64,000 nucleotides of DNA from Methanolobus mangrovi. Lineage in GTDB: Archaea > Halobacteriota > Methanosarcinia > Methanosarcinales > Methanosarcinaceae. A program made the position numbers and the translations under genes. A model generated the notes under the pieces. It did not search any database. It was not told the DNA's origin and saw nothing but the letters and a program-made list of their open reading frames with translations. Each line of letters opens with the position of its first letter. Positions within the stretch are counted from its first letter, which is position 1. The stretch is taken from positions 1 to 64,000 of the forward strand of contig NZ_CP133594.1 of assembly GCF_031312535.1 (NCBI RefSeq), written 5' to 3'. Shown here piece after piece: positions 2,698-63,728 of the stretch.

Positions 2698-3933
2698 TTA
2701 GACAAACATACTATGTGGCATATTAGATTCTTCTTCCTCTTCGACTACTTTTTCGTAGGCATCCATCATGTCTTTCATGGTGATGCTTTCGCCGCGTCTT
2801 CTCAGGACGAACATTCCGGCTTCTTTGGTTATGACCTTCAGGTCGGCACCGCTAAGGCCGTCTGTCATCTTTGCCAGCTTCTCAAAGTCCACATCGTCCG
2901 TGATGCTCATTTTACGTGTATGGATCTTTAATATCTCCAGGCGAGCCTTCTCATCAGGGATTGGAACCTCGATAACACGGTCAAAACGTCCAGGACGAAG
3001 CAATGCAGGATCGAGTAAGTCTATCCTGTTGGTTGCGGCAATGACCTTTACATTCTGTGTTGCGTCAAAACCATCCATTTCGGCCAGTAGTTGAAGCATG
3101 GTACGGTTGACTTCTGCTGAGCCTGTTGTACCGTCATGTGTACGCATACCGCCCACTGCATCGATCTCATCAATGAAAAGGATGGATGGGGCCTTGTCGC
3201 GAGCCATCTGGAACACGTCCTTTACCAGACGCGCACCTTCTCCGACGAATTTCTGCACAAGGTCGGAACCGGACATGCGTATGAATGTCGCATGTGCTCT
3301 TGAAGCAACAGCTTTAGCGATAAGGGTCTTACCAGTTCCGGGTGCGCCGTACAGCAATACTCCGGTAGGTGGCTCTATTCCTATCTTCTCAAAGAGTTCT
3401 GGTTCCAGGAGTGGTAGCTCCACAGATTCGACAACTTCCTTAAGCACATCATCCAGGCCACCTATCATATCATAGTCAATTCCGGGAGAGTTGATTAATT
3501 CCATGACCTGTGCGCGCACATCTGCAGCTCTGGTTATTATAGATATAATAGAGAATGCGGCATTGACGCAAACCCTCATACCTGCCTCTACATTCAGGTT
3601 AGCTGGGATCCTTGTCACAACTTCCTGATTGTTTCCATGCTGCCTGATAAGTGCTGTGCCATGGTCTACTTCCATTACCGTGGCAATGAATAGTGGCGGT
3701 GTAGTGAGTTGCTCCAGTTGTCTTTTGAGCTTATTAGTTTCGTCGAGATAATTATTTGCTAACATGCTGGCTTCAAGCAGTTTAGCGCGCATGTTTTCAT
3801 TATTGATTTTGAGTATCTCTATTTCATGAAGTAATGATTCTACATCTTTTTCGTCAAGACCTTCAGATTCTATCTGCGTCTTCATTTTTGAGCGATTGGT
3901 GTCAACTGGTGATTCGGCACTACTATTTGACAT
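2698..3933 (-). CDS. pan: Proteasome-activating nucleotidase (PAN)
   Basis: An AAA+ ATPase that unfolds proteins and feeds them to the 20S proteasome. The 411 residues run in the family order: an N-terminal coiled coil (about 28-75), an OB-fold (about 80-135), and the AAA+ module with Walker A GAPGTGKT (196-203), Walker B ILFIDEID (251-258), then NRIDLLDPALLRPGRFD as sensor-1 and arginine-finger region. The C terminus is Met-Phe-Val, a Phe variant of the HbYX motif that opens the proteasome gate. It is monocistronic. A TTTATATCC box about 30 nt upstream of the ATG (near 3957-3965 on the plus strand) and no Shine-Dalgarno suggest a short-leader transcript. Confidence 0.95.
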   Translation of the reverse strand: MSNSSAESPVDTNRSKMKTQIESEGLDEKDVESLLHEIEILKINNENMRAKLLEASMLANNYLDETNKLKRQLEQLTTPPLFIATVMEVDHGTALIRQHGNNQEVVTRIPANLNVEAGMRVCVNAAFSIISIITRAADVRAQVMELINSPGIDYDMIGGLDDVLKEVVESVELPLLEPELFEKIGIEPPTGVLLYGAPGTGKTLIAKAVASRAHATFIRMSGSDLVQKFVGEGARLVKDVFQMARDKAPSILFIDEIDAVGGMRTHDGTTGSAEVNRTMLQLLAEMDGFDATQNVKVIAATNRIDLLDPALLRPGRFDRVIEVPIPDEKARLEILKIHTRKMSITDDVDFEKLAKMTDGLSGADLKVITKEAGMFVLRRRGESITMKDMMDAYEKVVEEEEESNMPHSMFV

Positions 3934-16727: not shown

Positions 16728-16812
16728 GCGGGGGTTGCCCAGCCTGGCCAAAGGCGCAGGGCTTAGGACCCTGTCTCGTAGGAGTTCGTGCGTTCGAATC
16801 GCACCTCCCGCA
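16728..16812 (+). tRNA. tRNA-Leu (TAG anticodon)
   Basis: The acceptor is GCGGGGG/CTCCCGC, the anticodon stem CAGGG/CCCTG has loop CTTAGGA, and a long variable arm (TCTCGTAGGAG region) marks a class II tRNA. Length 85 nt, CCA not encoded. Confidence 0.93.
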
Positions 16813-17328
16813 CTATATTTTATCCGTGAGCACTTTTCATTTTGAATAAATTGCAGTTCCCTTTTAGGATGATCTGGTATTTTCTTGTCAAATGGTTATG
16901 GGGCTATTATGGGATATTCCAGACAAAAGTGCTTATCTAATTCAATATGTCCATGATGTTGATATTCCTGTAAGCCTTAACCTGAGCTTAACTATTTTTC
17001 CATCACAATGGTGGGGGTATTGCCGAGCTTTTATAGCTTTTAGGGATCTTGTCACCTTTTTCGAAGGCGTGGGCTTGAGTATGAAATTCTTAATTTCAGG
17101 CAATATGGTGAAAAGTCTGTCTTTGGGGACAGAAAACAGGATTGCATATTCATCGGTGCGGCCATCTGGCATTTTCTGATAAGTTTATACGTGGGTGTTT
17201 TCTTGAAAAGATTGCCCGCGAAGCTGGCAAAACTGTGTTTGTGGCTCGAAAATGGATAAAGCTCATGAATGTCCTTAAGAAGTAAAGAAAATAGTTTGTT
17301 TTGGTGTCTTCTATATTTGGGTGGGTTG
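16813..17328 (+). other. Decayed coding region between tRNA-Leu and the rRNA promoters
   Basis: No intact gene is convincing here. Protein-like segments appear in more than one plus-strand frame (95 codons at 16892-17179, then 17107-17285), which fits a gene broken by frameshifts. Confidence 0.4.
17107..17285 (+). pseudogene. Possible 3' remnant of an unidentified gene
   Basis: An open frame without a start codon begins after a TGA near 17105 and ends at the TAA 17283-17285. Its end reads like real protein (LAFSDKFIRGCFLEKIAREA, TVFVARKWIKLMNVLKK). A transposase origin is possible, but I cannot show it. Confidence 0.3.
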
Positions 17329-17344
17329 TTTATATATTTTATAA
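17329..17344 (+). promoter_or_regulatory. rRNA promoter P1 (TATA element)
   Basis: TTTATATATTTTATAA, about 490 nt before the 16S gene. It is the most distal of three strong TATA elements. Confidence 0.5.
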
Positions 17345-17398
17345 CCGTGGCAAAATAATATGAAAAGTCACAATCGTTAATTGACATTTCTCCGCAAC

Positions 17399-17409
17399 CC
17401 TTTTATACA
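17399..17409 (+). promoter_or_regulatory. rRNA promoter P2 (TATA element)
   Basis: A CCCTTTTATACAAG box. A GTGCTC/GAGCAC hairpin (17427-17443) overlaps the expected start site. Confidence 0.5.
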
Positions 17410-17543
17410 AGCATTGACTTGTAAGGGTGCTCGCGTTGAGCACAATGGTGCGTCACTGCATCATGATAATGACTCTACGTGAAGCATATGATGAAGTACT
17501 AATTTCATTTCATCGGGCAGGTGTCACAAAGGTTCATCCTTTG

Positions 17544-17578
17544 CCTTCGAATCTCCTGATTCGGAAGGTATATATAGG
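17544..17578 (+). promoter_or_regulatory. rRNA promoter P3 with upstream palindrome
   Basis: GGTATATATAGG (17567-17578) is the TATA element closest to 16S. Just upstream and overlapping it, CCTTCGAATC (17544-17553) and GATTCGGAAGG (17558-17568) form a stem with one bulged base and a 4-nt loop, a possible operator for growth-rate control. Confidence 0.5.
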
Positions 17579-17674
17579 ATGATGACCTTTGAAGGAGTCC
17601 GCGTGAATCGCGCGAGAACTTACAATCACCGCCTTTTAACAAGTGGAGGCAAGAGTTATTTCTTGTCTGACGTT

Positions 17675-17709
17675 GGATTTGGCAGTTCGGTTAATTCTGA
17701 CCGGTAGTG
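17675..17709 (+). other. 5' half of the pre-16S processing stem
   Basis: Segments 17675-17687 and 17695-17709 are complementary to 19361-19373 and 19338-19353 on the far side of 16S. Unpaired stretches between the two paired blocks give a bulge-helix-bulge-like structure, the known target of archaeal tRNA-splicing endonuclease in rRNA maturation. Confidence 0.7.
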
Positions 17710-17836
17710 AACAACTACTAAATTATTGGAATTAACCAACTAAGTGCATGTGAAAAGAAATTCTCTAGTGAGAGTTCTTTCCTAATGATTCCTTAAATGA
17801 CTTCCAAAATAATATACTTTTGTGTGTGGATTAACA

Positions 17837-19311
<1,475 letters not shown>

Positions 19312-19337
19312 AAGCAGATCGGCACAACGCCGATCAC

Positions 19338-19373
19338 CACTTACCGGTCAGAAATCGAAAAACTGTCAAATCC
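19338..19373 (+). other. 3' half of the pre-16S processing stem
   Basis: Pairs with 17675-17709: CACTTACCGGTCAGAA with TTCTGACCGGTAGTG (one bulge), and AACTGTCAAATCC with GGATTTGGCAGTT (one G-T pair). Confidence 0.7.
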
Positions 19374-19412
19374 GAAATAATCTACATGGATTCAAAAAAG
19401 GCGAATCCAGGA

Positions 19413-19485
19413 GGGCTTGTAGATCAGTTGGGAGATCGTCGCCTTTGCAAGGCGAAGGCCCTGGGTTCGAATCCCAGCAAGTCCA
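19413..19485 (+). tRNA. tRNA-Ala (TGC anticodon) in the 16S-23S spacer
   Basis: Acceptor GGGCTTG/CAAGTCC, anticodon stem TCGCC/GGCGA with loop TTTGCAA, T arm CTGGG-TTCGAAT-CCCAG. A spacer tRNA-Ala is the standard euryarchaeal arrangement. Confidence 0.95.
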
Positions 19486-19607
19486 TTATTTAGTGCACCC
19501 GAGAAGTAACTTTTTCGGGGAAGGATGAAGTGGTCGAAGCAACAACGGCTGCAATGAGATCGTGTATATGCATGCATATATCAGACGCTCACTGGACAAA
19601 GTGAGAT

Positions 19608-22533
<2,926 letters not shown>

Positions 22534-22632
22534 TCTTGCTTTGTCCAGGCGAAATCTGATATGTGCATGTTTAATATACACGAACTCAAGGTAAAGTATA
22601 AGTGTAATTGATTCATTTATGAATCGCTTGTT

Positions 22633-22704
22633 GCCAAGGTGGCGGAGCGGCTACGCAATCGCCTGCAGAGCGATTCCATTCCGGTTCGAATCCGGACCTT
22701 GGCT
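22633..22704 (+). tRNA. tRNA-Cys (GCA anticodon) between 23S and 5S
   Basis: Acceptor GCCAAGG/CCTTGGC with discriminator T, anticodon stem ATCGC/GCGAT with loop CTGCAGA, T arm TTCCGG-TTCGAAT-CCGG. The discriminator U is the usual identity base for Cys. Confidence 0.93.
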
Positions 22705-22732
22705 TTACCATTTACTATTCATTATGAGAGAG

Positions 22733-22854
22733 TTTGGCGGCCATAGCGGCGGGGAGATTCCTGTACCCATCCCGAACACAGAAGATAAGCCCGCCAGCGT
22801 TCCTTACTGTACTGAAGTACGAGAGTCTTCGGGAACTCTGGATCGCTGCCAACT
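22733..22854 (+). rRNA. 5S ribosomal RNA (ends approximate)
   Basis: It contains the conserved CCCATCCCGAACACAGAAG and a terminal stem from TTTGGCGGCC pairing with the GCTGCCAA region. About 122 nt, the last gene of the rRNA operon. Confidence 0.9.
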
Positions 22855-30016: not shown

Positions 30017-31249
30017 ATGACACACAAATCACAAAAAAAAGTAATGATACGTATATTGTTCATGTTTATTTTTATAACTGTATCTCCCTCTATGGCAACA
30101 ACTGTGGATATTAGGGGAACTCCACAGGATACTGGTTCAGTTGATGCCGGAAATATCTCATGGGACTATTCAACTTTTCCGGGCTTATATTATTCTGCAA
30201 ATAAACATACTCAGCTTACTGCAGGTTCAGGAGAACACCTTTATTTTGCAGATGATGGTGGAAATCCTTCAATAGGTTCGTCCAATCCAACAGCTCATAT
30301 AATCGATGAAGGGGAGTTAATCTATATCACCAGTCAGGTTGCTTCAAAGTACAAGGTATATTCAGAAGAGGATAACATTACAAAGGTAACTAAATTCTAT
30401 ACTCTTTCCTTGTTTGGTACATCTTACTGTGCAGTGGATAATGATGCAACGAATATTGCAAAGATTCTGATTCAGCAGGGTGAAAACGACAAGAAAACCC
30501 TTAAAAGTGGTGAGAAATGGGAAATGAAGGGTGGTTATTCGCTTGTACTGAATGCGGTGGATATTGATGGTGGTAAATGTTATTTGACTCTTTATAAAAA
30601 TGAAGAAGAACTTGATACTGGTGTAATCTCAACAGACGGTACAAATAATGACAGGATATACTCTGTCGAAGAGGATTGTGCCGATGGTTCTGAACACATA
30701 TATTTCCTCACCTACGTAGATTCCATATTTGCAGGCCAGGAAGATAATTTTGCAGTTCTAAAATATACCTGGCTGGCTGACAAAGATAGTTATGTGGAAG
30801 TGCAATCCGGTGATGAGTTCGGTAATTTCGAAGTAGATGAAGCACTTGGGGCCGGACTTGTATTATCCAACAGCAAATCTATTACCATTACTGTTGATGC
30901 AGGTGCAACGACACTTATTACTGGTGATTGGTACTTTAAATCATCTGACTCAGGTAAAGGTACCAATGGCGGATACATCCTCTATCCTATAAAGAGGGTT
31001 ACAATTGAGGACTCTGTAGCAGAGGCCGTAGTCGTTGATGAAGTTTCTGAAGAGGAAGAATTAGTTATTGTGGATGTATCTTCTGATACAAAAGAAACAG
31101 TGGATATTTCTAATAGTATTTTAGATCAAACAGATGTGGATGATGATGGCCCTGTAGAAACACTACATAAGAGTTCTATTCCAGGATTTGAAGGATCTAT
31201 GTCAGTTCTTGCAATTTCAATGGTATTCTTCCTCCGTAGATATTATTAA
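30017..31249 (+). CDS. S-layer-type surface protein with signal peptide and PGF-like C terminus
   Basis: The 410-residue protein has a signal peptide (about 1-25, MIRILFMFIFITVSPSMA), one DUF1608-like S-layer domain (WDYSTFPGLYYSANKHTQL, KFYTLSLFGTSYCAVD, SGEKWEMKGGYSLVLNAVD, YVDSIFAGQEDNFAVLKY), an acidic linker and a terminal PGFEGSMSVLAISMVFFLRR, a PGF-CTERM-like archaeosortase signal. It parallels the gene at 1-1203 domain for domain. Full-size Methanosarcina S-layer proteins have two such domains, so this may be an accessory surface protein. A GGAGG ribosome-binding site lies 9 nt before the ATG. Confidence 0.88.
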   Translation: MTHKSQKKVMIRILFMFIFITVSPSMATTVDIRGTPQDTGSVDAGNISWDYSTFPGLYYSANKHTQLTAGSGEHLYFADDGGNPSIGSSNPTAHIIDEGELIYITSQVASKYKVYSEEDNITKVTKFYTLSLFGTSYCAVDNDATNIAKILIQQGENDKKTLKSGEKWEMKGGYSLVLNAVDIDGGKCYLTLYKNEEELDTGVISTDGTNNDRIYSVEEDCADGSEHIYFLTYVDSIFAGQEDNFAVLKYTWLADKDSYVEVQSGDEFGNFEVDEALGAGLVLSNSKSITITVDAGATTLITGDWYFKSSDSGKGTNGGYILYPIKRVTIEDSVAEAVVVDEVSEEEELVIVDVSSDTKETVDISNSILDQTDVDDDGPVETLHKSSIPGFEGSMSVLAISMVFFLRRYY

Positions 31250-56044: not shown

Positions 56045-56662
56045 ATGGGCGTGAAAGATGTAAAACCAACTCGTTCAGAACTTATTGAATTCAAGAGAAA
56101 GATCAAGCTCTCTCAAAGTGGTCACAAGCTGCTCAAAATGAAAAGGGACGGTCTTATCCTTGAGTTCTTTGAGATCCTCAGCAAAGCAAAGGATGTCAGA
56201 ACAGAGCTGGATGCCGCCTATGAAGATGCTTCCCGAAAGATAGGTCTTGCAAATGCTGTTGACGGTACTATCACCGTTAAATCAACAGCTTTTGCACTTA
56301 AGAGCAAGCCGGAGATTGAGCTGGAAAGCCGTAACATTATGGGTGTAGTCGTTCCAAAGATCGAGTCATCCAGTGTAAAGAAATCCATTAACGAGCGTGG
56401 TTATGGTATTCTTGGTACCAGTTCATACACCGATGAGGCAGCAGATTCTTATGAGCACCTTGTCGAAAAGATTATCCTTGCTGCAGAGATCGAGACAACC
56501 ATGAAAAAGCTTCTTGATGATATCGAGAAGACCAAAAGGCGTGTCAATGCTCTCGAATTTAAGGTAATACCGGAATATCAGGAAGCAATGAGTTTCATTA
56601 GGCTCCGTCTCGAAGAGATGGAAAGGGAAAACACCTTCAGACTAAAGAGGATCAAGGGATAA
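56045..56662 (+). CDS. ahaD: A-type ATP synthase subunit D (central stalk)
   Basis: The 205-residue helical protein (VKPTRSELIEFKRKIKLSQS at the start, RRVNALEFKVIPEYQEAMSF near the end) forms the long coiled rotor shaft inside A3B3. AAAGGTGA lies 7 nt before the ATG. Base composition and start context match the rest of the operon. Confidence 0.95.
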   Translation: MGVKDVKPTRSELIEFKRKIKLSQSGHKLLKMKRDGLILEFFEILSKAKDVRTELDAAYEDASRKIGLANAVDGTITVKSTAFALKSKPEIELESRNIMGVVVPKIESSSVKKSINERGYGILGTSSYTDEAADSYEHLVEKIILAAEIETTMKKLLDDIEKTKRRVNALEFKVIPEYQEAMSFIRLRLEEMERENTFRLKRIKG

Positions 56663-57254: not shown

Positions 57255-60200
57255 ATGAATAAGAAATATTACTTTGAGTCAAAAGAAAAAACACATATAT
57301 TCTTCTTATTTTTAGTACTTCTAATGTCTGCACTCCTTATTGTGCCCAGTGGATGTCTGGACACAGATACGAGTGATCAAGCAAATAACGATAGCTTATC
57401 AGATAATCCGGATGATAGTTCTTCGAACTTATTAGATCCAACAGTTGATGATGACACAAGTGTCAATCCAACTGCTGATGGCACAACTGATAGTACCTCG
57501 ACCGAAGAGTCTTCGGTGCAGACGGTAACATCATATTACTCAAGTGGTGGGAGCAGTTCTAGCTCATCTTCTTCTACCAGTTCTGACGTAAGCAGGACCG
57601 TTACTTCCGGAGATTACACAGAACCTGTATCAACAATTACCGGTGACCTTACAATTACCGGAGCAACAACCGGTACAATAACACTACCTTCAGGGCTGAT
57701 CATTAATGGTGACCTTATTGTGAATACTCCAAGTGCTACAGTTTACAACTATGCAACCGTCGGAGGTACTGTCGACATCCAAGCAGTCAGTGTCCATACA
57801 TGGAACCAGTATGGTGATGCAGGCAGCATTATAATGTCTGCAACGAATGCCACCTTCAATTTCTTCTCCGGAAACGTAAGTGGAGAGGTTGACATATCTG
57901 CAGAGAATGCTACATTCGAGTTTATTGCAGGAAATATCACAGGTGGTGTAAATCTCACCCAACCATCCACAGTGATAATAAATGCAACTGCTACAGACCT
58001 TCCAGAAATTACAGTAGAAGAAGGCGCTGAAGGTTCAGACATCGATAACCTTGGTAATGAAGAATTAGAACTGATTGCAGAAGCCAATGTAACCGTAGCC
58101 GGAACTGTGAATGTCACAGGCGTAATTCCTACTGAGAGAACAGCCCGCGGCAGTCTGTCACTATCAGACACATCTGCAATTTACAACACCAATGTCAACA
58201 TGATTATTAATTACACGGCTGGTGAAGATCTTAGTAATGGTGTAGTTAATATTACTGTACCAGTAGGATTTGCCGTAGCTGATACAAATGGTCTTACTAT
58301 TGCAGGTGCAGGTACAACAGTTGCAGATAATGATAATGCTTCTTATAATGTTAACATACTGACTGTTGAAAATGTCACTATAAACAAAGACGAAATAATT
58401 GCACTTACCCTTACAACACAATCAGTAAGTTCAGCAGGAAATTATGATTTCTCTGCCACTGCAAAGAATACCTCTAAACTTACAAGTAATGCAGCAACTG
58501 CAAGGTTCACTTCATTACTAAACAATGATGCAGATCTTAGTGATTTGGTTGTAAGTACAGGTACATTGGTCCCTGGGTTCGATGTAAGTACAACTAATTA
58601 CACAGTTAACGTAACCTATGATGTAAGTTCAATTGATGTAACTGCTACATTATCCGATACAAATGCTTCAATGTTGGTTAATGGTGATACAACAATCACT
58701 GGTAGTGCAAAATCCGTTACACTTCAGGCTGCTGGAGAAACAACTTCAATCACGGTTGCTGTTACAGCTGAAGATGGAACAACTACAAAGACCTATACTG
58801 TGACAGTTGACAGGGCTGTTGACACAACAGTCGTAGACAATGCCGATATCGCAACAGCTAAATCCACTCTGGAAACTGCAGCAACACTCAATCCAGTAGA
58901 AGGTACTGATACAAACGCTACAGTAATGGCACAGACCATTGTTGACGGTGCAGTATCAGGTGTGACTGTAACTATAAGTGATGCAAACGGTAATGCAAAT
59001 GTCGCAGCAGACGGAACGATCTCCTACACTGCTTCAGAAATAACAGGAAATGTAGTGTTTGCTCTCAATAAGGGAACAGGTACCCAAGATACGGCAACGA
59101 TGTCAGTTGTTGTACCGGCAAATCCAACTGCAGCAGCAAATGCTGATATTGCAACAGCTAAATCCACTCTGGAAACTGCAGCAACACTCAATCCAGTAGA
59201 AGGTACTGATACAAACGCTACAGTAATGGCACAGACCATTGTTGACGGTGCAGTATCAGGTGTGACTGTAACTATAAGTGATGCAAACGGTAATGCAAAT
59301 GTCGCAGCAGACGGAACGATCTCCTACACTGCTTCAGAAATAACAGGAAATGTAGTGTTTGCTCTCAATAAGGGAACAGGTACCCAAGATACGGCAACGA
59401 TGTCAGTTGTTGTACCGGCAAATCCAACTGCAGCAGCAAATGCTGATATTGCAACAGCTAAAGCAGCTCTGGAAACTGCAGCAACACTCAATCCAGTAGA
59501 GGGTACTGATACAAACGCTACAGTAATGGCACAGACCATTGTTGACGGTGCAGTATCAGGTGTGACTGTAACTATAAGTGATGCAAGCGGTAATGCAAAT
59601 GTCGCAGCAGACGGAACGATCTCCTACACTGCTTCAGAAATAACAGGAAATGTAGTGTTTGCTCTCAATAAGGGAACAGGTACCCAAGATACGGCAACGA
59701 TGTCAGTTGTTGTACCGGCAAATCCAACTGCAGCAGCAAATGCTGATATTGCAACAGCTAAAGCAGCTCTGGAAACTGCAGCAACACTCAATCCAGTAGA
59801 AGGTACTGATACAAACGCTACAGTAATGGCACAGACCATTGTTGACGGTGCAGTATCAGGTGTGACTGTAACTATAAGTGATGCAAGCGGTAATGCAAAT
59901 GTCGCAGCAGACGGAACGATCTCCTACACTGCTTCAGAAATAACAGGAAATGTAGTGTTTGCTCTCAATAAGGGAACAGGTACCCAAGATACGGCAACGA
60001 TGTCAGTTGTTGTACCGGCAAATCCAACTGCAGCAGCAAATGCTGATATTGCAACAGCTAAAGCAGCTCTGGAAACTGCAGCAACACTCAATCCAGTAGA
60101 GGGTACTGATACAAACGCTACAGTAATGGCACAGACCATTGTTGACGGTGCAGTATCAGGTGTGACTGTAACTATAAGTGATGCAAGCGGTAATGCAAAT

Positions 60201-63032
60201 GTCGCAGCAGACGGAACGATCTCCTACACTGCTTCAGAAATAACAGGAAATGTAGTGTTTGCTCTCAATAAGGGAACAGGTACCCAAGATACGGCAACGA
60301 TGTCAGTTGTTGTACCGGCAAATCCAACTGCAGCAGCAAATGCTGATATTGCAACAGCTAAAGCAGCTCTGGAAACTGCAGCAACACTCAATCCAGTAGA
60401 GGGTACTGATACAAACGCTACAGTAATGGCACAGACCATTGTTGACGGTGCAGTATCAGGTGTGACTGTAACTATAAGTGATGCAAACGGTAATGCAAAT
60501 GTCGCAGCAGACGGAACGATCTCCTACACTGCTTCAGAAATAACAGGAAATGTAGTGTTTGCTCTCAATAAGGGAACAGGTACCCAAGATACGGCAACGA
60601 TGTCAGTTGTTGTACCGGCAAATCCAACTGCAGCAGCAAATGCTGATATTGCAACAGCTAAAGCAGCTCTGGAAACTGCAGCAACACTCAATCCAGTAGA
60701 GGGTACTGATACAAACGCTACAGTAATGGCACAGACCATTGTTGACGGTGCAGTATCAGGTGTGACTGTAACTATAAGTGATGCAAGCGGTAATGCAAAT
60801 GTCGCAGCAGACGGAACGATCTCCTACACTGCTTCAGAAATAACAGGAAATGTAGTGTTTGCTCTCAATAAGGGAACAGGTACCCAAGATACGGCAACGA
60901 TGTCAGTTGTTGTACCGGCAAATCCAACTGCAGCAGCAAATGCTGATATTGCAACAGCTAAAGCAGCTCTGGAAACTGCAGCAACACTCAATCCAGTAGA
61001 AGGTACTGATACAAACGCTACAGTAATGGCACAGACCATTGTTGACGGTGCAGTATCAGGTGTGACTGTAACTATAAGTGATGCAAGCGGTAATGCAAAT
61101 GTCGCAGCAGACGGAACGATCTCCTACACTGCTTCAGAAATAACAGGAAATGTAGTGTTTGCTCTCAATAAGGGAACAGGTACCCAAGATACGGCAACGA
61201 TGTCAGTTGTTGTACCGGCAAATCCAACTGCAGCAGCAAATGCTGATATTGCAACAGCTAAAGCAGCTCTGGAAACTGCAGCAACACTCAATCCAGTAGA
61301 GGGTACTGATACAAACGCTACAGTAATGGCACAGACCATTGTTGACGGTGCAGTATCAGGTGTGACTGTAACTATAAGTGATGCAAGCGGTAATGCAAAT
61401 GTCGCAGCAGACGGAACGATCTCCTACACTGCTTCAGAAATAACAGGAAATGTAGTGTTTGCTCTCAATAAGGGAACAGGTACCCAAGATACGGCAACGA
61501 TGTCAGTTGTTGTACCGGCAAATCCAACTGCAGCAGCAAATGCTGATATTGCAACAGCTAAAGCAGCTCTGGAAACTGCAGCAACACTCAATCCAGTAGA
61601 GGGTACTGATACAAACGCTACAGTAATGGCACAGACCATTGTTGACGGTGCAGTATCAGGTGTGACTGTAACTATAAGTGATGCAAACGGTAATGCAAAT
61701 GTCGCAGCAGACGGAACGATCTCCTACACTGCTTCAGAAATAACAGGAAATGTAGTGTTTGCTCTCAATAAGGGAACAGGTACCCAAGATACGGCAACGA
61801 TGTCAGTTGTTGTACCGGCAAATCCAACTGCAGCAGCAAATGCTGATATTGCAACAGCTAAAGCAGCTCTGGAAACTGCAGCAACACTCAATCCAGTAGA
61901 GGGTACTGATACAAACGCTACAGTAATGGCACAGACCATTGTTGACGGTGCAGTATCAGGTGTGACTGTAACTATAAGTGATGCAAGCGGTAATGCAAAT
62001 GTCGCAGCAGACGGAACGATCTCCTACACTGCTTCAGAAATAACAGGAAATGTAGTGTTTGCTCTCAATAAGGGAACAGGTACCCAAGATACGGCAACGA
62101 TGTCAGTTGTTGTACCGGCAAATCCAACTGCAGCAGCAAATGCTGATATTGCAACAGCTAAAGCAGCTCTGGAAACTGCAGCAACACTCAATCCAGTAGA
62201 AGGTACTGATACAAACGCTACAGTAATGGCACAGACCATTGTTGACGGTGCAGTATCAGGTGTGACTGTAACTATAAGTGATGCAAGCGGTAATGCAAAT
62301 GTCGCAGCAGACGGAACGATCTCCTACACTGCTTCAGAAATAACAGGAAATGTAGTGTTTGCTCTCAATAAGGGAACAGGTACCCAAGATACGGCAACGA
62401 TGTCAGTTGTTGTACCGGCAAATCCAACTGCAGCAGCAAATGCTGATATTGCAACAGCTAAAGCAGCTCTGGAAACTGCAGCAACACTCAATCCAGTAGA
62501 GGGTACTGATACAAACGCTACAGTAATGGCACAGACCATTGTTGACGGTGCAGTATCAGGTGTGACTGTAACTATAAGTGATGCAAGCGGTAATGCAAAT
62601 GTCGCAGCAGACGGAACGATCTCCTACACTGCTTCAGAAATAACAGGAAATGTAGTGTTTGCTCTCAATAAGGGAACAGGTACCCAAGATACGGCAACGA
62701 TGTCAGTTGTTGTACCGGCAAATCCAACTGCAGCAGCAAATGCTGATATTGCAACAGCTAAAGCAGCTCTGGAAACTGCAGCAACACTCAATCCAGTAGA
62801 GGGTACTGATACAAACGCTACAGTAATGGCACAGACCATTGTTGACGGTGCAGTATCAGGTGTGACTGTAACTATAAGTGATGCAAGCGGTAATGCAAAT
62901 GTCGCAGCAGACGGAACGATCTCCTACACTGCTTCAGAAATAACAGGAAATGTAGTGTTTGCTCTCAATAAGGGAACAGGTACCCAAGATACGGCAACGA
63001 TGTCAGTTGTTGTACCGGCAACAACCGGTTAA
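57255..63032 (+). CDS. Giant repeat surface protein (1,925 aa, 14 near-identical Ig-like repeats)
   Basis: Residues 1-35 form a signal peptide ending VPSGC, a lipobox-like site, so lipid anchoring is likely. A Ser/Thr/Asp-rich linker (about 36-120) contains a Ser run. Residues about 125-290 read as short parallel beta repeats (GDLTITGATTGTITLPSG, GGTVDIQ). A beta-sandwich follows (about 300-425), then a cadherin-like beta-sandwich (about 430-525, NDADLSDLVVSTGTLVPGFD). From residue 529 there are 14 repeats of exactly 100 residues (NADIATAKAALETAATLNP start, DTATMSVVVPANPTAAA end) that resemble atrophied bacterial Ig-like domains. The protein stops after VVVPATTG with no PGF-CTERM or membrane helix. 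Probably an extracellular stalk or adhesin. GGTGA precedes the ATG. Confidence 0.88.
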   Translation: MNKKYYFESKEKTHIFFLFLVLLMSALLIVPSGCLDTDTSDQANNDSLSDNPDDSSSNLLDPTVDDDTSVNPTADGTTDSTSTEESSVQTVTSYYSSGGSSSSSSSSTSSDVSRTVTSGDYTEPVSTITGDLTITGATTGTITLPSGLIINGDLIVNTPSATVYNYATVGGTVDIQAVSVHTWNQYGDAGSIIMSATNATFNFFSGNVSGEVDISAENATFEFIAGNITGGVNLTQPSTVIINATATDLPEITVEEGAEGSDIDNLGNEELELIAEANVTVAGTVNVTGVIPTERTARGSLSLSDTSAIYNTNVNMIINYTAGEDLSNGVVNITVPVGFAVADTNGLTIAGAGTTVADNDNASYNVNILTVENVTINKDEIIALTLTTQSVSSAGNYDFSATAKNTSKLTSNAATARFTSLLNNDADLSDLVVSTGTLVPGFDVSTTNYTVNVTYDVSSIDVTATLSDTNASMLVNGDTTITGSAKSVTLQAAGETTSITVAVTAEDGTTTKTYTVTVDRAVDTTVVDNADIATAKSTLETAATLNPVEGTDTNATVMAQTIVDGAVSGVTVTISDANGNANVAADGTISYTASEITGNVVFALNKGTGTQDTATMSVVVPANPTAAANADIATAKSTLETAATLNPVEGTDTNATVMAQTIVDGAVSGVTVTISDANGNANVAADGTISYTASEITGNVVFALNKGTGTQDTATMSVVVPANPTAAANADIATAKAALETAATLNPVEGTDTNATVMAQTIVDGAVSGVTVTISDASGNANVAADGTISYTASEITGNVVFALNKGTGTQDTATMSVVVPANPTAAANADIATAKAALETAATLNPVEGTDTNATVMAQTIVDGAVSGVTVTISDASGNANVAADGTISYTASEITGNVVFALNKGTGTQDTATMSVVVPANPTAAANADIATAKAALETAATLNPVEGTDTNATVMAQTIVDGAVSGVTVTISDASGNANVAADGTISYTASEITGNVVFALNKGTGTQDTATMSVVVPANPTAAANADIATAKAALETAATLNPVEGTDTNATVMAQTIVDGAVSGVTVTISDANGNANVAADGTISYTASEITGNVVFALNKGTGTQDTATMSVVVPANPTAAANADIATAKAALETAATLNPVEGTDTNATVMAQTIVDGAVSGVTVTISDASGNANVAADGTISYTASEITGNVVFALNKGTGTQDTATMSVVVPANPTAAANADIATAKAALETAATLNPVEGTDTNATVMAQTIVDGAVSGVTVTISDASGNANVAADGTISYTASEITGNVVFALNKGTGTQDTATMSVVVPANPTAAANADIATAKAALETAATLNPVEGTDTNATVMAQTIVDGAVSGVTVTISDASGNANVAADGTISYTASEITGNVVFALNKGTGTQDTATMSVVVPANPTAAANADIATAKAALETAATLNPVEGTDTNATVMAQTIVDGAVSGVTVTISDANGNANVAADGTISYTASEITGNVVFALNKGTGTQDTATMSVVVPANPTAAANADIATAKAALETAATLNPVEGTDTNATVMAQTIVDGAVSGVTVTISDASGNANVAADGTISYTASEITGNVVFALNKGTGTQDTATMSVVVPANPTAAANADIATAKAALETAATLNPVEGTDTNATVMAQTIVDGAVSGVTVTISDASGNANVAADGTISYTASEITGNVVFALNKGTGTQDTATMSVVVPANPTAAANADIATAKAALETAATLNPVEGTDTNATVMAQTIVDGAVSGVTVTISDASGNANVAADGTISYTASEITGNVVFALNKGTGTQDTATMSVVVPANPTAAANADIATAKAALETAATLNPVEGTDTNATVMAQTIVDGAVSGVTVTISDASGNANVAADGTISYTASEITGNVVFALNKGTGTQDTATMSVVVPATTG
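58839..63023 (+). repeat. Tandem array of fourteen 300-bp repeats with a 1,200-bp higher-order period
   Basis: Units begin at 58839 and every 300 bp to 62739; the last is cut short at the gene end. Units are nearly identical. Three variable sites are visible: TCCACT (units 1-2) versus GCAGCT, GAA (units 1, 2, 4, 8, 12) versus GAG in the VEG codon, and AAC (units 1, 2, 6, 10) versus AGC in the SDANG/SDASG codon. Units 3-6 and 7-10 have the same pattern, and 11-14 match except at the last AAC/AGC site. Confidence 0.95.
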
Positions 63033-63060: not shown

Positions 63061-63098
63061 ATACACCCCCCAATTACAGGGGGTTGTATTTCTTTTTT
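63061..63098 (+). terminator. Strong hairpin terminator after the giant surface protein
   Basis: ATACACCCCC pairs with GGGGGTTGTAT (63061-63089, one mismatch) and is followed by TTTCTTTTTT. It lies about 30 nt after the stop codon. Confidence 0.8.
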
Positions 63099-63172: not shown

Positions 63173-63652
63173 CTAGTTTTTAATCTCTCTCAAAACCTCA
63201 AGCACCTTCAGAGCGTGTTCCTTTGTTCTGACATTATCCCATATCTTAACGATATTTCCTTCAGTATCGATTAAAAAAGTCGATCTCACAGTGCCCATGT
63301 ATTCCTTGCCATAATTTTTCTTCATTCTCCAGACATCATATTTCTGGTGAACACTGGTATCCTCGTCTGAGAGAAGGGTTATACCAAGTTCTTTTTTCTC
63401 AATGAATTTTATATGAGATTTAACGCTGTCCTTACTAACTCCAAGAATTACTGTATTCTCTGATTCAAAGTCACCTTTCAGGGCTGTAAAATCCTGTGCT
63501 TCCTTTGTGCATCCTGAGGTGTTGTCTTTGGGGTAGAAATAGAGGACTAGCCATTTGCCAGTAAAGTCCTTCAGACATACTTCATTCTCATTCTGGTCAG
63601 GGAGGCAGAACTCTGGAGCTTTTTGACCTTCTGTAAGTGAATTCTTGCTCAT
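63173..63652 (-). CDS. bcp: Bcp/PrxQ-type peroxiredoxin
   Basis: A thiol peroxidase that reduces peroxides with a protein thiol donor. The 159-residue protein has KAPEFCLPDQ, LVLYFYPKDNTSGCTKEAQDF with peroxidatic Cys48, and TVRSTFLIDTEGNIVK. The resolving Cys expected five residues after Cys48 in classic Bcp is Gln here; the other cysteines are Cys16 and Cys26. It may be a 1-Cys or atypical form. ATG at 63652 is preferred to GTG at 63676. GGTATAAAGG on the minus strand at about 63684-63693 places the start just before the ATG. Confidence 0.92.
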   Translation of the reverse strand: MSKNSLTEGQKAPEFCLPDQNENEVCLKDFTGKWLVLYFYPKDNTSGCTKEAQDFTALKGDFESENTVILGVSKDSVKSHIKFIEKKELGITLLSDEDTSVHQKYDVWRMKKNYGKEYMGTVRSTFLIDTEGNIVKIWDNVRTKEHALKVLEVLREIKN

Positions 63653-63728
63653 GGAATACTTTATGTACTTTTTCACTTAAAGCCTTTATACCAGAATTGA
63701 TGATTGTGTACAACGGAGAACATTATAA

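Follow-up and report, generated by a model that had tools for sequence, protein, structure and literature searches.

How does an archaeal gene come to consist, over its 3′ two thirds, of near-identical 300-bp units, and what could such an array do for the cell? The question is raised by a 1,925-aa protein of Methanolobus mangrovi encoded in the window, i.e. the whole 64,000-nucleotide stretch analysed, which belongs to a genome assembled as one contig of 2,623,311 bp with an estimated completeness of 100%. The gene lies downstream of an A-type ATP synthase operon, in which subunits A, B and D are recognised; a peroxiredoxin gene and an ABC transporter lie on the 3′ side of the gene, as they do in most relatives (Table 1). 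Elsewhere in the window, positions 16728–22854 hold an rRNA operon (16S, tRNA-Ala, 23S, tRNA-Cys, 5S) with tRNA-Leu upstream, and a 410-aa ORF with an S-layer protein domain (PF07752) at 30017–31249 adjoins a PAS/histidine-kinase gene.

Table 1. Features of the repeat gene and its flanks (window coordinates).
Feature	Position	Strand	Basis
A-type ATP synthase subunit D (atpD), 5′ flanking gene	56045..56662	+	profile match
Single ORF, 1,925 aa, putative surface repeat protein	57255..63032	+	sequence
Hydrophobic N-terminal leader with lipobox-like end ...PSGC34, predicted lipoprotein anchor	57255..57356	+	sequence (anchoring by prediction)
Ser/Asp/Thr-rich linker, aa 35–110	57357..57584	+	sequence
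Probable β-helix region, aa 111–290, AVSVxTWNQ motif	57585..58124	+	structure model
BslA-like region, aa 302–409	58158..58481	+	profile match
Cadherin-like β-sandwich domain PF12733, aa 428–520	58536..58814	+	profile match
Tandem array, 14 x 300 bp, 14th 283 bp, Ig-like units (weak Big_9)	58839..63021	+	TRF, unit comparison, Pfam
Units 1–2, diverged 5′ edge (TCCACT, GAA, AAC)	58839..59438	+	unit comparison
Block 1, units 3–6, A B A C	59439..60638	+	unit comparison, permutation
Block 2, units 7–10, A B A C	60639..61838	+	unit comparison, permutation
Block 3, units 11–14, A B A A, stop cuts last unit	61839..63021	+	unit comparison, permutation
Terminator-like hairpin, then T-rich run	63061..63098	+	folding z -2.9
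Peroxiredoxin (AhpC/TSA), 3′ flanking gene	63173..63655	-	similarity

The repeats form one tandem array with a period of 300, 13.9 copies, 99% match and no indels (TRF), and this is the single occurrence of the array in the source genome. An initial annotation had described 14 units of exactly 300 bp ending at 63023. The count and the period, with 14 in-frame units of 100 aa each, hold; the last unit is 283 bp, as the stop takes the place of its final 17 nt, and the array ends at 63021, followed by an 11-nt tail. Column-by-column comparison recovers all three variable sites that had been called obvious, and adds synonymous changes at unit positions 6 and 12, restricted to unit 1, that had been overlooked. 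At positions 25/27/28, units 1–2 read TCCACT (Ser-Thr) and all others GCAGCT (Ala-Ala). Position 63 is GAA or GAG, a synonymous change, with GAA carried by units 1, 2, 4, 8 and 12, and position 149 distinguishes AAC (Asn) from AGC (Ser), with AAC carried by units 1, 2, 6 and 10.

When units are coded as A (gag/S), B (gaa/S) and C (gag/N), units 3–14 read A B A C A B A C A B A A. The recurrence of GAA in units 4, 8 and 12 and of AAC in units 6 and 10 every 1,200 bp is therefore as first described, and the period is indeed broken solely at the last site of units 11–14, where unit 14 carries S and a four-unit period would give N. The per-unit alignment and self-comparison that the initial annotation had proposed as a check bring out the same 1,200-bp block: the exact self-match at this lag extends over 2,485 bp (59202–61686), compared with a maximum of 520 bp at lags of 300, 600 and 900 bp. 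Units are identical in seven of eight pairs at lag 4, in 5/10 at lag 2 and in 1/n at odd lags, and units of the same phase differ at a mean of 0.17 sites, versus 0.83 for units of other phases. When the units are shuffled, the best of lags 2–6 has p = 0.0038 and lag 4 has p = 0.0031, values that rest on two informative sites and five variant-carrying units. The four-unit pattern thus exceeds chance, though on two variable sites.

Copying of single units gives contiguous runs of a variant, and the variants here are spaced exactly four units apart; hence four units must have moved together at least once, provided that each variant arose once. This supports the block duplication originally proposed. 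The present order can be reached from ten units arranged D D ABAC ABAA by duplicating 1,200 bp once, which leaves no "break" at unit 14 to explain; the register of the four-unit block cannot be fixed.

The array is also young. Mean dS among units 3–14 is 0.0055, whereas dS between the stem and its ortholog in the Methanolobus genome G045 is 0.93, and that between the two atpD genes is 0.38. This contrast, together with the absence of the unit from the G045 locus, indicates that the array is far younger than the species split, or that recombination keeps its units homogeneous, in agreement with the recency claimed at the outset. The description of units 1–2 as an "older" variant does not stand, since no outgroup carries the unit and polarity cannot be assigned. 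Unequal crossover that evens out the interior of an array would likewise leave diverged units at its edges.

The protein reads as a chain of predicted β-domains. The leader ends in PSGC, with Pro at position -3, where Leu is usual, and its SGC is kept in the four relatives read; on this signal, the protein is predicted to be an N-terminally anchored lipoprotein and is likely located at the surface. The probable β-helix region is modelled with a pLDDT of mostly 78–95, from an alignment of four sequences. The BslA-like region (6.5e-9) falls under the curated cut-off in the source protein and over it in the G045 ortholog, while the cadherin-like domain scores 61.6 bits against a cut-off of 24.2 (1e-16). 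A Foldseek search with the stem model gave nothing under E 0.001. The top VIA-align row for the stem is the chitinase ChiW (Z 13.9, rmsd 15.5 over 233 residues), a model-based match that is no more than a hint of a β-helix plus Ig arrangement.

The repeat unit itself is rich in Ala, Thr and Val, without Cys and with few aromatics, and contains one N-glycosylation sequon (31 in the whole protein). Its Big_9 (PF17963) score remains below the curated cut-off of 23.6 bits, at 18.1 bits for one unit and 21.6 for the whole protein. aBig_2 (PF20578), suspected from a motif, has no match at E≤1 in the source genome, and an AlphaFold2 model of two units (pLDDT 37.5) is too poor for rod inference or a structure search. 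Matches of the array to HybE, DUF7389, desulfoferrodoxin, L24e and PRK10040 (Pfam/NCBIfam) were rejected as summed sub-threshold repeats, in which no stretch passes alone.

The protein has no C-terminal anchor and no distal head domain after the repeats: the last repeat match is followed by just the residues ATTG and the stop codon. With the predicted anchor at the N-terminus and no domain beyond the final repeat, a tip adhesin is disfavoured. Of the surface stalk or adhesin originally envisaged, a surface protein remains likely, given the N-terminal signal with its Cys lipobox and the chain of β-domains, whereas an adhesin stalk is doubtful and there is no support for an adhesin carried at its tip.

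The repeat unit has no confident relative in 111 other genomes of the family, where the best match (E 3.6e-4, G018) is partial, nor in 392 other genomes of the phylum, nor among viral contigs, plasmids, phages and genome contigs, and it has no match among PDB sequences; some of these collections may omit records of the source genome itself. Serine-protease-like surface proteins with a cadherin-like domain (L113–L116) were found and set aside as not orthologous. One of these loci, L113 8768–10805 (G044), encodes another surface protein in which a cadherin-like domain adjoins a 261-bp repeat (7.8 copies, 90% match) that runs into the end of the contig. In a 2,152-aa protein of a Dethiobacter MAG (L107 3541–6261), a region 38% identical to the β-helix part of the stem is joined to other modules and to several 213–216-bp repeats, suggesting that surface domains may have been exchanged between bacteria and archaea.

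In most Methanolobus genomes with a readable atpD neighbourhood, atpD adjoins the peroxiredoxin gene without any such gene in between; a few have a different downstream order or a contig too short for this comparison. A leader-bearing gene occupies the junction in the source genome (G000), G045, G056 and G049, and a relative of the stem is present in the Methanolobus MAG contig NZ_JAUXNK010000037.1. The G045 stem is 75% identical over aa 170–525. Homology stops just past the cadherin-like domain (58818) and restarts near the terminator (63039; window coordinates), and an element resembling the source hairpin also lies 3′ of the G045 gene. Between the equivalents of these points, G045 encodes an unrelated domain of ~100 residues, versus 4.2 kb of repeats in the source, and the 300-bp unit is not found at this G045 locus. 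As assembled, the G045 ortholog (L035 3086–4938) consists of two overlapping frames near 3607, which might reflect a dispensable or decaying gene, phase variation or an assembly error.

At the same junction, G056 carries two near-identical 264-bp units (98%). The G049 array has two or more 264-bp units, again near-identical (99%) but of a different kind, and ten Ns fall exactly inside it (L102 4092–4101), a typical sign of repeat collapse. The units of the source, G056 and G049 show no convincing similarity to each other (hhalign probability for source versus G056, 3.8%). G056 and G049 are 91% identical in the peroxiredoxin region and 76% in the leader and linker, and no nucleotide similarity is detected between these two regions. 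Modules of G056 and of G049 match a G054 protein encoded at another locus (71–79%), and 3′ modules are therefore shuffled between loci and species. On these comparisons, the best reading of the atpD–peroxiredoxin junction is that its 3′ modules have probably been exchanged between species.

We consider it probable that the array makes up the outward portion of a Methanolobus surface protein that is secreted and held by an N-terminal lipid anchor, and that it forms a block-amplified rod that is Periscope-like with reversed polarity and lacks a head. A single unit would have joined the stem, and recombination between copies would then have amplified it, in steps of which one or more spanned 1,200 bp. 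The repeats would project outward from the membrane as a rod, or present a multivalent surface there. Recombination between units would alter their number, and cell-to-cell variation in unit number is predicted. Gain or loss of units would alter how long and bulky the rod is, or how many copies of a weak binding surface are displayed, and a longer array would place more repeat outside without pushing a head or tip adhesin outward. Amplification at this locus is recent in relatives too, as shown by the near-identical repeats of G056 and G049.

The same sequence evidence is also compatible with an array that was amplified once, recently, by block duplication and no longer varies in length. We regard such a frozen array as unlikely, because the long near-identical arrays of bacteria show the largest variation in repeat number (PMC8201768) and near-identical repeats also occur in two relatives at the same locus. 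The period might also have arisen by accident, through independent mutations or through short gene-conversion tracts originating in units 1–2, without a 1,200-bp duplication. Only two sites are polymorphic, and units 1–2 hold both minority states (GAA and AAC), so that the 5′ edge could have supplied the variants by conversion, although this is less likely. An accidental period is nonetheless quite improbable: it is opposed by the permutation result (p 0.003–0.004) and by the difference between same-phase and other-phase units (0.17 vs 0.83), and conversion tracts often bring neighbouring markers along, whereas TCCACT was never transferred.

Very improbable, finally, is a wrong unit number or block order introduced by short reads or an assembler loop. 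The Ns in the G049 array show that such arrays break assemblies; the source genome, however, is a single contig of full estimated completeness, the edges of its array join in frame to the unique stem and to the stop and terminator region, and the flanks match the sister locus. Moreover, collapse of short reads reduces the number of units and does not create ordered markers.

A wider proposal is tentative and, in our view, rather doubtful: the atpD–peroxiredoxin junction of Methanolobus may be a contingency locus, the first described archaeal system of its type, in which leader and stem are kept, outward modules are swapped between species and each new terminal domain is amplified into a fresh array, so that the identity and length of the stalk would change fast. 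Variable-length repeat stalks are described in bacteria, where they are linked to host immunity and colonisation. To our knowledge, a methylotrophic methanogen does not meet animal immunity; a young array in such an organism therefore suggests a more general driver, such as viruses, grazing, cell–cell contact or the matrix. The four-unit marker order provides a ready genetic read-out of changes in unit number and of their step size, and bears on the question of recombination-driven resizing of surface proteins in archaea.

Among known systems, the tandem repeats of Borgs are likewise reported to be archaea-linked, recently formed, fast-evolving and independently arisen, and to encode disordered protein regions (PMC9879509). 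Borgs are extrachromosomal elements, whereas the present array consists of domain-sized units in a chromosomal gene. The adhesin-like proteins of Methanobrevibacter and Methanosphaera (PMC11532034) have the order N-terminal membrane anchor, β-helix and repeated archaeal Big domains, an order that is predicted here, with a helix from a four-sequence model and a weak repeat fold. Their repeats are diverged (60.6% average similarity in one example, versus >97% DNA identity here), they belong to a different archaeal order, and the source unit is not matched to their domain. VARTIG, the hypervariable Ig protein of Thermococcales (PMC8416519), also has a conserved N-terminal part and a C-terminal part swapped between species by recombination. 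The likeness drawn here is one of architecture. The Methanolobus locus has the peroxiredoxin and ABC transporter in place of a variable downstream gene module, and its tails are tandem arrays. The same study reports no VARTIG counterpart outside Thermococcales, and mosaic proteins in Methanosarcinales.

The closest parallel is provided by the bacterial Periscope Proteins (SasG/Aap, Rib and the SHIRT domains of Sgo_0707), surface proteins with long near-identical tandem repeats, for which length change via inter-repeat recombination has been proposed (PMC8201768, PMC9704523); neither paper mentions archaea. Like their repeats, which exceed 50 residues and have very high DNA identity, the present unit is long (100 aa) and uniform (14 copies, 99% match), and its Ig-like character, under the Pfam cut-off, recalls the β-sandwich repeat types common among them. 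Unlike them, the source protein is archaeal, has a predicted N-terminal lipid anchor instead of an LPXTG motif or β-barrel, and carries no functional head distal to the anchor. As the distal head is absent and length variation is a prediction, membership of the class is not claimed; the array is real, young and block-structured, and makes the protein a good archaeal candidate for a Periscope-like role.
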